Below, piece after piece: positions 1,221 to 34,600 of a stretch of DNA of 64,000 nt (positions are counted from its first letter, which is position 1; the number at the start of each line of letters is the position of its first letter). The translations under genes and the position numbers were made by a program. Under the pieces are notes generated by a model, which saw only the letters and a list, made by a program, of their open reading frames with translations, was not told the origin of the DNA and made no database searches. Source of the DNA: Meloidogyne chitwoodi (lineage: Eukaryota; Nematoda; Chromadorea; Rhabditida; Meloidogynidae); NCBI GenBank assembly GCA_015183035.1, contig JACZZP010000010.1, positions 744,001-808,000 on the forward strand, in the 5' to 3' direction.

Positions 1221-3105
1221 ATGGATACTGACAGAACACGGGCACTTTTTGCCCCACTAATTCAACGGCCAACACTAACTGATCAATTACTTAATAGACC
1301 TCCATTCAAATTTCTTCATGACATCATTCAAGAAATTCTTAAATCTACAGGTTATCCTTCTGGACTTTTCACAGATGATGAACTTGATTCGACCAAAGCT
1401 TCATCATCACGTGATAATAAAATTGCTTTTCTTCAAAAGCTTATTGACGTACTTAATATCGAAGGTCAACTGGACGATCTAAAACCTGCCAAAATTGTTG
1501 CTGGTAAAGAACCAGAATTAACAAATATTTTGCTTCAATCATTAGCCATTGAAGCGGCTGCATTCAAGCAGAAAAAGGAGAAAAAGTCAAGTTCATCTAA
1601 ATTAAAAAGCAGCAAAACCTCATCCAAAAGCAATGAAAAAGTTGAAAAAAGTAAAGAAAGGGATAGTTCAAAATCACGTAACAAAACCTCTTCCAAGTTA
1701 AAAACAACTGATGAAAATCAAAAGAAAGAGAAGGTTTTAGAAGATTCTTCAAAAATTCGCAAGGCTAAGAAAGAAGAAACAGCATCTGATACGAAGATTA
1801 GGAGTAAAGAAAAGAAGAGTTCTACTTCAAAAGAAAAGTCAAAGGATTTAAAGGATAGTAAAGAGAGGAAAAAGAATAAGTCAGATTCTGTTTCTAAAAA
1901 TGGAACAAAAGTTTCTGGAGCTGAACTGCCTGTTTCTACTTTACCCATTTCATCTGTAAAACAACAGATTGCTCAACCTCAGACCGAATTGCTTTATAAT
2001 TCTAGCCTTCCAACTACTCAAAGGACCCCACCGGGCAGGGAGTCGAGCGGTGGAACTTCAAAAGGAGATTCTGGAGTCGAATCTGGAATCGCAGAAGAGA
2101 CAGGGGCTGACAGTGAAAGGCATGATTTATCTGAGAGGTCTATTGCAGCAAAAATTAGGTTATTTATATATTCATTTTAAAAGGATTGTTTCAATTTTAG
2201 TCGACAAGAGTTTATTGAAGATAATTCTACACCAGATCTGCTTCCATCTCAACCTTTGAGACCTGGTACAGCGATTGGACGACCTCAAACAGCAATTGGA
2301 AGACCAGGAACAGCAGTTGCTCGTCCAGCGCCCCCAAAACCAAAGAAAAACATTATAGCTACAAATTTAAATGAGGAAGACACTTCAACACTTGTAGAAA
2401 ATAAAATGTTGAATTTAATTTTGGATGATGAGAAAGAAGAAATAAAAAATGATGATTCTTGGTGGAATGGAGATTTAATTGTTGAAGCTGAAGAGGATGA
2501 GAATTTAATGTCAAATTTTACTGGTGCAAATATTAATAAATTGGCAGAAAGCAATGAAGAACATGGAGTTCTTGTAAATAAAATAATTGAGAATACGAGA
2601 GAATTGGAAAAAGATCAAATTAAGGTTTTTATTAATTTTTATTGTAATTAACCAAATGATTAAAAAAAACTTCTTTCTTACAGTCCACCTTTAGTTAATT
2701 GTCCTTTAATTTTTATTAACTTTAAAGGTTGATGATACTTTTACTGAAGGTGATTCTCTTGACATGCATGAACAAATAAGAGTTCGTGCTGAAATAGAAA
2801 CAACACAAAAGTCACTTCAAAAAATGACACAATATGTACAACCAATGGTTAGGACATTAGAGTTTGTTGTTGACGATTTTGATTCAATGCTGCGTGAATT
2901 GGAAGAAACAAGAAAACAAATTGTTATTTTGGAAAGAAAATTAGCAGAACAAACAGTCAATGCAGATTCTGAAGCAAACAAATTAAATATTTCGATACAA
3001 TTGGTCGATAACGACATTCAACATATTAAAGAACAAATTGCCAGTTCTATGGCTATAATTTTACAAAATGAAACAAAATTATCAGAATTACTAATATTCC
3101 CTTAA
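1221..3105 (+). CDS. dyf-11: TRAF3-interacting protein 1 / IFT54 (DYF-11)
   Basis: Three exons (1221-2158, 2201-2624, 2728-3105) give 579 residues. The first 115 residues match the N-terminal MIP-T3 domain (calponin-homology-like, tubulin-binding): a compact helical region with PFKFLHDII and SGLFTDDEL. A long Lys/Ser/Glu-rich disordered middle follows, then a short GRPGTA-type repeat near residues 335-355, and a C-terminal coiled coil from exon 3 (many E, K, L, Q heptads) as in the family. IFT54 is a subunit of intraflagellar transport complex B, linking kinesin-2 cargo and tubulin in sensory cilia; loss in C. elegans gives dye-filling defects. An AG at 1200-1201, just before the ATG, could accept a spliced leader. 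The last intron ends in AAG, a common acceptor in this window. Confidence 0.88.
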
Positions 3106-28600: not shown

Positions 28601-31600
28601 TGGAGCACCTGACCCAAGTGTTGGATGGACAAAAGTTGATGGTGGAGGAACTCTTCCTCCTGAATTAATTGTTGATGTTCGTCGTCCTGGACAAACTTCC
28701 ATTTTTTTCCCTTCTGCAAAGCGCTCAGAAAGTGGTGCATATGAATTAAGACTTAAAAATGAAGTGGGAGAAGCTGAGGGCACTTTTGAGGTTATCATTC
28801 AAGACAAACCTTCTCCGCCTAAAGGCCCAATAGCTGTTGATGGTGTTACAAAAGACTCATGTCAACTGAGCTGGCAACCACCTGAAGATGATGGCGGTTC
28901 TCCTTTAACTAATTATGTTGTTGAAAAACGAGAGATTGGAAGCAATGTTTGGACACCTGTTTCAAATTTTGTTCCAGGCTGTCAATGTTCAGTACCAAAA
29001 CTGAAAGAAGGTCAAGAATATGAGTTCCGAGTTTGTGCCGTAAATGCTCTAGGCCGGTCGGATCCTTTAGTGACAGATTCGCCAGTTTTGGCTAAAGATC
29101 CATTTGGAAGGCCAGGAAAGCCTGGAAGGCCAGAAATTACCGATCATGACAATAATTATATTTCACTTAAATGGAAACCACCTAATGATACTGGTGGATC
29201 GCCTATAACACATTATGATGTACAACGAAAAGATCAAAAAACTGGACGTTGGGTTAAGGTAGAATGTTAATTGTGAGATTTTAACTAAAAATATTAATTA
29301 ATTTATAGGTAAATACCCATCCTGTCTTTGGAAATGAATACACAGATGAAAGAGTTCAACCTGGACATGGATATGAATATCGTATTGTTGCGGTGAATAA
29401 AGCAGGTCCTGGCGATCCTTCAGACCCTTCAGAACTTGCTTGGGCTAAACCCAAATTTGAGGCCCCTCGTTTTGAATTGGATATAGATGGAAAAGAGATT
29501 CGAGTTCGTGCTGGTCAGCCACTTGATCTCGCAATTCCTTATATTGGCTCACCTCAGCCAACAATAACTTGGACAAAAGATGGTCAACAAATGAGTGGTT
29601 AATAAAAATATACAAAATATTTTTCTTTTATTTTTTTTTTAAAGGAATTGAAACAAAACCTGGAATTACTCGTCTTTACATTCCACAAAGCAAGCGTTCA
29701 GACTCTGGCCAATGCCGTATTGAAGCAACAAATGAAAAAGGAAAAGCGGAGGCTCGTGTTCTTATTAATGTTATAGACAGGCCAGGGCCACCTGAAGGAC
29801 CAATTACTTATCCATCAACAACTCGGTAAATTAAAAGGAAAAAATATTAAAAATATTAAATTAAAAGGCGTGGAGTAACTCTTTCATGGAAACCACCGAA
29901 AGATGATGGAGGAGCTGAGATAAGTGGTTATAGAATTGAATATCAAGAGATGGGTGCTAGAGAATGGGAACGTGTGCCTGAACAAATTACTTTATTAAAT
30001 TATACTGTTAGAAATCTGGAAAAGGGTAAAGAATATAAATTCCGAGTATTTGCTGAGAATATGGTTGGTCAAAGTGATCCTCTCAATGGAGATCCAGTTA
30101 TAGCTAAAGATCCATTTGGTAAAAAATTAATGAAATCTAGACTTTTAATATTTTAATTTTTTAGATCCACCAGGTCCTCCATCAACACCTGAAGTGACTG
30201 CGTATGATACAAATATGGTATCACTTCGTTGGAACCCTCCAAGAGACGATGGAGGTTCTCCAATAACTGGATATGTTGTTGAGCGATTTGAAAAGCGTGG
30301 CGGTGGAGACTGGGCTCCTGTCAAATCATTGGGAATTTGTCGCCTCACACAAGCAAATGTTACTGGTTTATCTCAAGGTGAAATATACCAATTCCGAGTT
30401 CGAGCCATAAATGCTGCTGGTGAAGGACCGCCCAGCGGTTCTTGTGAACCAGTTGAATGCCGACCATTTGTTGGTGAGTTTTTTAATTTTTTGAACTAAA
30501 AATCTTCCTTCGTTTTCAGAACCTCCTGGTGCTCCTGACAAACCTCGTATAGGAAAAGTTACCAAAAACACTGTTGATTTGAACTGGAATCGTCCAATTT
30601 CTGATGGTGGAGCACCTATAGAAGGATATGTTGTCGAACAACGTAAAATGGCAGATGGTGAAGAATGGCGTCGCTCTAATACTGGACTTGGCCCTAGAAA
30701 AATGTGTAGAGATACTCGATGCACTGTGGAAGGTCTTCCGGAGAAAGAGCAATTTGAGTTTAGAGTTCGAGCTGTTAACCGAGTGGGTGAAGGCGAACCA
30801 TCTAAGCCCAGTGACATGGTTCTCACTACTGACCAACCTGGACGACCTATTCTTGATCTGAGTGGTCTAAAAGACATTACAGTACGTGCTGGTGAAACAA
30901 TTACCTTTACTTTGCCTTACACTTCGGGAGGAGCTAAACCCACTGTTGATGTACTCAATAGTGGTCAAACAATATTTGATGATGATAGAACTACAATACA
31001 AGTGGAAGATGATCGCATTGTTTTTACAACATTGGATTCTAAAAGATCTGATGCAGGCCCATACAAAGTGGTGAGTGGACTTAATTAGAGTGTTAGTATG
31101 TTTGGGTCTAATCTCTTTTTAATTTAAAAAAGGTTGTCCAAAATCGCTATGGTAAAGATTCAGCCAAACTTAACGTCAATGTTCTTGATGTTCCCGGCAA
31201 ACCAACTGGGCCAATTCTCTTCTCCGAATTAAGTGGAGATGCTTGCACATTACATTGGAGCCCTCCAAAAGATGATGGGGGTTCACCTGTCACAAATTAT
31301 GTTGTTGAACGTAAGCCAGCCAAAGGTGGTGACTGGGAACGTGTAGGTGCACCATCTGGCCTTTCTTACCGATGTCGGGGACTAAATCACGGCGAACGTT
31401 ATGATTTCCGTGTTCGGGCAGAAAATCAGTATGGCATTGGTAAGTAAATATAAATCACTTTTTTATAATTTATGTATATTTTGTTTAGGTGACCCACTTG
31501 ATGCTGATGAGTCTTTACTCGCAAAAGGAGCATTTGACGTTCCAGGTCCACTTATATAATAATTACTATACAATAATTTATTTAAAATCAAAGCTTAAAA

Positions 31601-34600
31601 TAAAATAACAGAAAAAAAGAATAAAATCACAAAAAACCTATTGAATTTTACGATGTTCTTATGTAGAGTAAAACCCATTTGCCCTTTTGACAGCTACTCT
31701 TCGCGTTGTTGGTGATAAAGTTGACAAGGTGGAAGCACATTGAGAAACAGTTTTTGGCACAGTTCTTTTTTTGTTGTGCCGTTTGAGCTTAATCCACTCC
31801 AAAGTAGGCCACTTTTCGCAAAGGAGTTGTACCGCTGCCAAATGCCAGAAGGAGACCTTAATAAAAAATTGTATTTTTCTAAAATGAAACAACCTTCGCA
31901 TGGACTAATTCATCATCACTGCATTCAATACAATCCAAAACATTTTTCCATTCAATTGTTTTGTTTGTCAAATGTTTACGGCGTTTATTTGCAATAGTTA
32001 GGAGGCCCTCTAAAAAACAAGAAACATAATTACTCAATAATATTTTCACCCAAAAATAAAGCCTTCTCTCTATTAATGTTTCTGATCAAAACTGCTCCTT
32101 CAACCTTTTTAAATTGAGAAAATCTTTTTCCACCTCCATGTTGTCTGAAACGACGTTCAACACCCCTAGTATAGCCCACATAAATCCAATCAAGTAAATT
32201 AGGACCCTTTCTGGAGATATAAACCTAAAATTAAGCTGTAAAATATTCCAAAAAAAAATAAAGAAAAATACCGCTGCATTTCCTTTACTCTCAGTTAAAA
32301 AATTCATAAGATTTTCCGTTGATACGCTATTTCCGCTAACAGCATCATTGAAATGGTGAGACCACCCATTAACATCATAAAATTTAGCATGTTTACAGTT
32401 TTTGGATTTGAAATGTCTGTACATGCCGTTGGCATTATCAATTGACAAAGAACAAAATAAGCAGTTGATTGAATCTTTTGCTTTGTATTTCTGTACTTTA
32501 ATACTTGGGTGTTGTTTATTCATATGTCTCAAGATGCCACGACAGCTTATACCTTTTTCGTTTTTAAATTGAATTGTAATAGTCGCTCTACATTCTTTGC
32601 ATGTAGCCTTTGAATTATCTACTGTGAAGTGTTGCCAAATTGGACTTCTGAAGGTATTTTGTGTGTTTAAAGGACAAGAGTTGGAAGTTGGAGAAGACAT
32701 TAAATAATTATAAAACGTTTACGTATTTGAAAATCTAAATTAGAAATTAGAGAAAATAACCTTAAGGCACCATCACTATGTAGATAAATGTTTTAAAAGT
32801 TGACATTTTGAAATTTAAACACAAAAAAATTACAAAATGTCTAAGAGCATATAGCAAATAGAAGAAACGTGTCTATGCGCTAGTATCCCATCTGTTAAGT
32901 TAAGCTACGGTGGTAACTCAATTCCGCTTTTATTCAAGAAAATGGTTTTTTCTGCCTTTTTTAATATTTTTGGAAAATAGAAATTATTTATTTGGGAAAT
33001 GTGTATATTAAAATATTATATACATATAATAGAACAATAAAATTCTATTTATATTATCTCTAGTGCATTCGTCATCATTATCGAGTTCCTCTTCTACTAA
33101 TCGCTCTTAGAATCCATCGTGTATTATGTTCTGTGATGCCTGATACTTCCTTTATCATCCTTTTTAGTGTACGCATTTTTCCTCGGCATTTTTAAAACGA
33201 TTAAGCTGAAAAAATAAGTTAAAAATGGTAAAATCATTTATATATTAAATTTTGAATGAATAGTTTTTAACACTGCTCAGTAATACTCCAAGTATGATTT
33301 TCCATAGGCTTGTTCCAGCCCCTAAATACAATCCAGAAAACCACATTTACTTAATTGAATAAAAAAATGCTTTTTAGTAGGAATTTTGACTATCAATTTT
33401 AAATGCTTTAAATTTTAATTTAAGGTCCACCGGGTGCCCCTGAACCTGTTCATACAGCTGATGATTCTATCATACTGGAATGGACACGCCCACTTTATGA
33501 TGGAGGTGCCCCAATTACTGGATACGTTTTGGAAAAAAGAGAAGCAGGCAAAAATTCTCCCTGGGAAAGAGCTGCATTTGGGAATGTGCCAGAAACTAGG
33601 TTTAAAGTAACTGGCGTTAAACCTCAACACACCTACGAATTTCGTGTAGCTGCTGTCAACACTGCAGGTCAAGGCGGTTGGAGCGAGAATTCCGTATATT
33701 TCTTATATAATTTTTAATAATTTAACTTTTATTATTTTAAGATTCCAATTTTGGCAGCACCACGCCCTTCTAAACCAATCATTTCTTTGGGATTACTTGC
33801 CAGAGATATAGTTGCTTTGGTAGGAGATCCAGTAAAAATACTTGTACCTTATGCTGCTAGTCCTAAACCAGATATTAAATGGACAAAAAATGGTTTACCA
33901 CTCGATGCTAGTGCTAGAACTCGTTCTGAGATTGAAAGCAGTGACTTTCTAACTCAATTAAATTATCCTAAATGTGAAAGAGGGGATACTGGCACATATT
34001 CTATTAAAATTGAAAATGATTTGGGCTCTGATTCAGTTGATCTCAAATTAAAAGTATTTCTGAATTTAAATATTTTTATTTAAAAAAATATGTTTTTAGG
34101 TTGTAGACAGACCATCACCTCCAGAAGGGCCACTCGAATGTGACGATATTGGCCCAGAATCTTGCAGATTGGCATGGAAACCACCAAAAGATGATGGTGG
34201 ATCTCCAATAACTAATTATGTTATTGAAAAATGTCGTTTAATTGGTGGTCAAGAGAACTGGGAAAGGCTTAGTTCATTTGTTCGTGGCACAAATACTTTA
34301 GTACCTGGACTTGTAGAGAATGAAAGATATAGGTTCAGGGTATTGGCTGAAAATCAATATGGGCTTTCTGATCCGCTAGAATTGCCTGAACCGATTGTGG
34401 CTAAATACCAGGTGAATAAAAAAACAAAAAATATCTTTAAATAATATCTTTATGCAATCTAAAATAGACTTTTATTTTTAATATTTTTAGTTTTCTGTTC
34501 CTGGACAACCAGATAAGCCGATTGTACGTGACTTTGATCGAAATTGGGCTTTAATTGAATGGGATCCTCCAGCTTCTAATGGTGGTTCTAAAATATTGGG

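Follow-up and report, generated by a model that had tools for sequence, protein, structure and literature searches.

The structure of the twitchin insert and its antisense gene

The DNA considered here is a 64,000-nucleotide stretch of the genome of Meloidogyne chitwoodi (C2:744001-808000; referred to below as the window), and relatives of its contents were sought in 47.48 Mb of the same genome (30 contigs). The subject is an insert in a twitchin gene that carries, on the opposite strand, a gene for a predicted zinc finger and GIY-YIG nuclease protein (Table 1). Exact copies of the 8-bp sequence AGGTCCAC, which occurs twice in the window and nowhere else there, bracket positions 31552-33422, and AGGTCCACCGG would be the uninterrupted form of the site. 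As proposed in the first-pass annotation, the left copy supplies the GT donor and the right copy the AG acceptor, and removal of the 1879-bp intron from donor to acceptor (31546-33424) restores the reading frame (GAFDVPG/PPGAPEPV); that the insert behaves as an intron is therefore supported, as far as sequence can support it. Shuffling gave a mean of 0.32 chance occurrences of AGGTCCAC over 100 shuffles, with at least two in 5/100. The 8-bp repeat taken by itself is only modest evidence for insertion, because, among the 874 AGGT...AGGT pairs that the window contains at spacings of 40-2500 bp, 8 (0.9%) likewise have the following four bases in common. The donor, GTCCAC, is atypical beside two neighboring donors read by eye (GTGAGT and GTAAGT), which fits a donor derived from duplicated exon.

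The antisense gene is stop-free and codes for 305 residues in four exons, with GT-AG introns of 47, 40, and 37 bp between them; the BED finger, the second Cys/His finger, and the GIY-YIG catalytic positions annotated earlier are all in place, the Glu202 codon being split across the junction of exons 2 and 3. The BED finger scores above its Pfam cut-off. An earlier expectation that a profile search would recognize the nuclease domain held for a relative, L030 (23.0 bits against a cut-off of 22.6), and so for the superfamily, but not for the window protein itself, which scored 17.1 bits, or 20.5 bits as an isolated domain. Matches in L032-L036 were under the cut-off where obtained, and the profile search of L029 and L031 gave no match. 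Residues Y145, Y158, R168, H172, E202, and N217 are invariant in all eight rows of an alignment (one row composite), as are the equivalent six in 7/7 contiguous relatives other than the window protein, and the order of two Tyr, Arg, and Glu is that of the GIY-YIG superfamily, with the Asn of the UvrC/homing lineage (motifs in part from PMC1564403).

Public predicted proteins of 0.55-1.75 times the query length that share words with the query yielded no relative of the window protein at E 0.001 (375 candidates) and no match to the eight-row alignment A1 at E 0.01 (3178 candidates). This lack is informative because the same database contains nematodes, among them the TRAF3IP1 protein of Meloidogyne enterolobii, which is the 68% match of a TRAF3IP1-like open frame near the start of the window (1221-2180).

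Table 1. Features of the twitchin insert (window positions) and introns of family A elsewhere in the genome (contig and position)
Feature	Position	Strand	Remarks
Left AGGTCCAC	31544..31551	+	GT donor at 31546-31547
Twitchin intron from insert	31546..33424	+	1879 bp; exon join DVPG/PPGAPEP
Insert left end	31552..31592	+	like left ends of collagen intron C27:1712448 and ankyrin intron C5:17047
Exon 4	31659..31856	-	stop and C-terminal tail; FWHLAAVQLL..W motif like the tail of relatives
Exon 3	31894..32009	-	end of GIY-YIG domain, Asn217
Exon 2	32050..32224	-	GIY-YIG core: Tyr145, Tyr158, Arg168, His172
Exon 1	32272..32700	-	begins with the start codon (32700); encodes BED finger and second Cys/His module
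Second finger and FY..N.WS..F module, residues 80-143	32272..32463	-	common to relatives
BED zinc finger, residues 19-65	32506..32646	-	PF02892, 23.8 bits, cut-off 20.6
Inverted-repeat block, ~50 bp	32791..32843	.	arms 32802-32816 and 32827-32841; ~90 bp upstream of start codon; also present in short collagen and ankyrin introns
Multi-copy repeat in insert	32844..33066	.	
Right AGGTCCAC	33423..33430	+	AG acceptor at 33423-33424
Family A intron	C29:1927197		344 bp, retains 3' end of gene
Family A intron	C27:163718		266 bp, both ends kept, internal deletion
Family A intron	C9:1817005		311 bp, arrestin-like gene (by eye)
Family A intron	C29:2032463		321 bp
Family A intron	C9:333953		75 bp
Family A intron	C7:2144533		57 bp

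A family of finger and GIY-YIG modules

The first-pass annotation took the two-domain protein to stand alone. Six-frame genome searches with the window protein and one relative (E up to 0.11) instead found the finger and GIY-YIG module, whole or partial, at 16 loci including the window. Both parts are present in ten (C1, C2, C3:1925k, C6, C8, C9, C10:809k, C10:1588k, C12, and C29) and the module is partial in six (C3:2037k, two on C11, C13, C27, and C28), of which C28:665k is a weak member (E 0.04, finger part only). A further candidate, C11:923k, was dropped at E 0.33. Members share the finger with its FY..N.WS..F stretch and, where found, the tail motif, and most have an intron directly upstream of the GIY-YIG exon.

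The N-termini vary. The BED finger of the window protein has its place taken by C2H2 fingers in L033 (C8) and by a nuclear-receptor finger in L035 (C12; zf-C4, E 2.4e-16), in both cases within one exon shared with the module, while L034 and its near-copy L036 have an SH3 domain N-terminal to the module (E 4.5e-09 in L034) and L030 has an I-set domain ahead of it (24.0 bits, cut-off 23.7). At L035 (C12:2371000-2378000), tyrosine kinase exons, presumably of an Abl-like kinase, are followed on the same strand by the nuclear-receptor finger, the last part of which lies in the exon of the module finger. The extra domains of L035 and L034 may be captured copies, since a second copy of the L035 kinase, 64-71% identical, exists at C8:1389 kb. 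The SH3 exons (L034:2800-3120 and the matching part of L036) lie within the mobile intron unit in the same orientation as the nuclease gene, and look like captured host coding sequence.

Two pairs of loci are nearly identical, L030/L039 (95.8% over 2168 bp) and L031/L032 (95.6% over 3067 bp); the module genes of L030 and L039 have, by eye, distinct short basic first exons. Sequences of hAT type were seen at two places: the flank of L002, a copy of the window repeat at 32844..33066, resembles a hAT C-terminus by eye, and at L038 (C13:265000-271500) a hAT dimerization domain (PF05699, 21.9 bits) lies upstream of the partial finger module on the same strand.

Related introns in unrelated genes

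At all four loci with both host exons identified, in genes for twitchin, a WDR62-like protein, a nuclear receptor, and an IFT140-like protein, the module gene lies antisense within an intron. The unit on C6 is a 2294-bp intron of the WDR62-like gene, and that on C9 is a 2242-bp intron in the zinc-finger region of the nuclear receptor gene; the two are 89.4% identical starting at intron base 1, whereas their flanking exons are dissimilar. Together with six shorter introns (Table 1) they make up family A, in which two of the eight introns found carry the gene, one a remnant, and five no gene. Of eight sequences compared with the C6 unit, five align with it from intron base 1, a further two have just a donor stretch in common with it, outside the aligned piece, and L062 matches at the acceptor end only; the intron at C9:333953 scored 78 against a best of 53 in 500 shuffles. 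The donor-end pattern of family A, allowing up to three mismatches, occurs at 17 places as against six for a backwards control; five of the 17 were already in the set and four were retrieved (one then dropped), the analysis covering these nine. As read from these alignments, related predicted introns occupy unrelated genes, and identity within family A begins at the donor.

The window insert falls in a second set, family B, by virtue of two matching stretches, its left end and an inner block of 50 bp. The short members are introns of collagen A (226 bp), an ankyrin gene (168 bp), and collagen B (70 bp), which score 102 (collagen A/ankyrin), 78 (collagen A/B), and 62 (ankyrin/collagen B) against one another, values reached by 0/500 shuffles each. 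The inner block of the insert scores 96 against collagen A (best shuffle 52) and 71 against the ankyrin intron (best 46), and its left-end scores were reached by one and two of 1000 shuffles for collagen and ankyrin, respectively. Of the two insert ends, for which a search of the assembly was suggested earlier, the left resembles those of the collagen and ankyrin introns, and the right is unlike that of any of the three short introns. Among the four family B copies found, the window insert alone bears a gene. The GGGCCAGC sequence beside the intron of collagen A was weighed as a target duplication and put down to chance in repeated codons, because one copy fewer breaks the Gly-X-Y frame.

The fourth host intron, 5119 bp in the IFT140-like gene on C1, holds the L032 module antisense; a copy ~95% identical lies on C10. 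Full-length matches to U2 spliceosomal RNA occur at L032:266-452 (C1, 124.6 bits), inside this intron, and at L037:2000-2190 (C27, 155.4 bits), near a module fragment. A ~340-bp repeat at L032:2795-3133 has dozens of copies among the 40 candidates scored out of 631, often beside an inverted partial copy.

These relatives are in line with the earlier suggestion of a mobile, intron-forming insert; the details proposed for its integration fared less well. The 8-bp duplications expected as a rule are seen at none of the 11 other mobile introns, which share one to six junction bases: one to four in ten, and six (CCAGGT) in the arrestin-like gene. The IFT140-like intron has two. Cutting at AG/GT sites finds no support in insertion sites such as TCTG/G, TGCG/A, and AATG/G. 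With 8 bp at the window intron only, the integration chemistry is not uniform. The duplication at the twitchin insert is consistent with filling of a staggered break after insertion; elsewhere, either the ends erode, or repair is blunt or led by homology as in intron homing.

Comparison with known mobile introns and nucleases

Excerpts of the 2025 description of mirusvirus 'shintrons' state that the association of nucleases with spliceosomal introns was previously unobserved, and report that GIY-YIG enzymes account for 132/334 of the intron-borne nucleases and that 64.1% lie in virion genes (PMC12768974). The present case resembles shintrons in consisting of a GT-AG spliceosomal intron that holds a homing-type nuclease gene (PMC12768974), an arrangement found, by sequence only, at four loci. 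To judge from those excerpts it differs in that shintrons belong to giant viruses of protists, whereas these copies occupy unrelated genes of an animal nuclear genome, their nuclease genes are antisense with introns of their own, and animal-type zinc fingers are the partners.

Introners are known from many eukaryotes. According to parts of one survey, they are nonautonomous transposons with target-site duplications in 49/130 families, terminal inverted repeats in 72/177, and neither in some, for which candidate mover transposases have been sought (PMC9860276); the main text of that article lacks the word nematode. The discussion of a nematode intron survey, in the portion available, cites introner elements as a newly found source of introns (PMC9169325). 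As with introners, similar sequences bounded by splice sites form introns of unrelated genes in family A (cf. the available parts of PMC9860276), but the long copies here include a nuclease gene, and copies are few (eight and four found). The window case unites the shintron and introner kinds, adding animal DNA-binding domains.

I-TevI, which resides in a self-splicing phage intron, is a GIY-YIG enzyme with Tyr, Tyr, Arg, His, Glu, and a C-terminal Asn. The proteins described here have the same GIY-YIG residues, their gene likewise lies inside an intron, and I-TevI was the best match of one of two fold models, the other, of L032, matching nothing. In I-TevI the DNA-binding part is C-terminal, as an excerpt of PMC1564403 indicates, whereas here it presumably lies at the N-terminus, within a protein encoded in a spliceosomal intron. 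Penelope-like elements are eukaryotic, mobile, and equipped with a GIY-YIG endonuclease (PMC1564403, in part); the 305-residue protein contains no reverse transcriptase by Pfam, and none was noticed by eye in the frames of its relatives.

BED fingers are common in hAT transposases. The finger and the 8-bp duplication of the window insert recall that superfamily, but no hAT domain was found in the 305-residue protein or seen by eye in the frames of the insert, and 8 bp are duplicated in only 1/12 introns. Within the open-licence literature, most subscription papers being excluded, searches found no description of spliceosomal introns with a nuclease gene in animals, nothing on a zinc-finger transposon with BED and GIY-YIG domains, and, for GIY-YIG in Meloidogyne, only a paper on the repeats of another nematode; on spliceosomal homing introns the one relevant paper was that on mirusviruses.

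Origin and spread of the introns

The introns described here seem to have spread in the manner of mobile elements, perhaps with help from the nuclease that they encode. We regard it as slightly better than an even bet that the twitchin insert is the gene-bearing member of a mobile spliceosomal intron set in M. chitwoodi whose spread is nuclease-assisted. The long copies carry a predicted spliced antisense gene for a finger and GIY-YIG protein with its catalytic residues in place, and it is plausible that this nuclease drives intron movement. The antisense gene would be expressed from its own promoter, the N-terminal domain would steer the GIY-YIG domain to DNA, and the protein would cut, with repair of the break copying the intron in. 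Insertion would come at low cost because the spliceosome would remove the intron from host mRNA, and, with the gene antisense, the signals that the element uses for its own splicing and polyadenylation would be kept out of the host transcript. Introns without the gene (57-321 bp in family A, 70-226 bp in family B) would have arisen by deletion, either moving in trans or shrinking where they lie; one intron of 344 bp retains the 3' end of the gene. More tentatively, and at somewhat under even chances, these may be self-spreading animal spliceosomal introns, with an antisense fusion nuclease that opens new intron sites and whose DNA-binding part has been swapped between families (BED, C2H2, nuclear-receptor finger).

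Several results weigh against the main reading. Host context is settled for 4/16 module loci, leaving 12 without it, and the 8-bp duplication is confined to one of 12 mobile introns. The recent gene pairs have dN/dS of 0.55 and 0.75, which on few changes indicates weak constraint, and the fold model of L032 matched nothing. In family A, the intron at C7:2144533 is barely above shuffles (63 against 60, with its best local match at the acceptor end of the unit), a C2 site was dropped as a mobile intron (13/500 shuffles), and the inverted repeats (E 9.5e-11) barely surpass controls of reversed AT-rich sequence (3.3e-10). In family B, the window insert does not match collagen B significantly (46/500 shuffles), and at its right end there is no match to any of the three short introns. 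All 13 exon joins give an open frame, but this is not a blind test because the splice sites were selected visually and more than one frame is open at several joins.

That the introns are mobile as introners through some other enzyme, the finger and GIY-YIG gene being a passenger or an intron-dwelling host family, seems unlikely but is the alternative to which we give most weight. The gene is absent from five of the eight family A introns, reduced to a remnant in one, and carried by two, hAT-type sequence adjoins the window gene (by eye) and the L038 relative, and the pairs L030/L039 and L031/L032 were duplicated without demonstrated intron boundaries. Yet the two gene-bearing copies of family A moved whole with the gene inside, the SH3 exons are the only further protein in the unit (frames read by eye), and three units (window, C6/C9, and C1) have the module in an intron and match one another at the DNA level only in AT-rich scraps. 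It is improbable that an old, ordinary twitchin intron was simply hit by a transposable element, with the AGGTCCAC repeat due to chance: repeats of this kind at 0.9% of AGGT pairs, the frequency of nested genes in introns, and the lack of detected relatives for the right end of the insert are as such an origin would have it, but the insert spans repeat to repeat with nothing of an intron left over, its donor is atypical, and counterparts of its left end and inner block are found in whole introns elsewhere.

Lower still do we rate spread via RNA, in which a reverse transcriptase, Penelope-like or other, would act in trans or intron RNA would splice into new sites. Penelope elements retain introns on moving, 11/12 mobile introns lack an 8-bp duplication, and the introns at C29:1927197 and C9:333953 are, in gene orientation, 5'-truncated with a retained 3' end, all of which would suit such a route, as would the GIY-YIG domain, which is that of the Penelope endonuclease (PMC1564403, in part). 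No reverse transcriptase was seen by eye in the unit, however, the family A intron on C27 has both ends and an inner deletion, and the C-terminal Asn, invariant here, is typical of the UvrC/homing lineage (PMC1564403, in part).

Implications for intron gain

How new spliceosomal introns arise is a long-standing question, and many introners have no known mover. If nuclease-assisted spread is true of the M. chitwoodi introns, they would be autonomous introners and the animal equivalent of viral shintrons, and an animal intron with its own nuclease gene would offer a testable mover. Such an intron would tie the homing introns of phages and mirusviruses to intron gain in animals, and would show natural fusion nucleases assembled from host-type DNA-binding domains.

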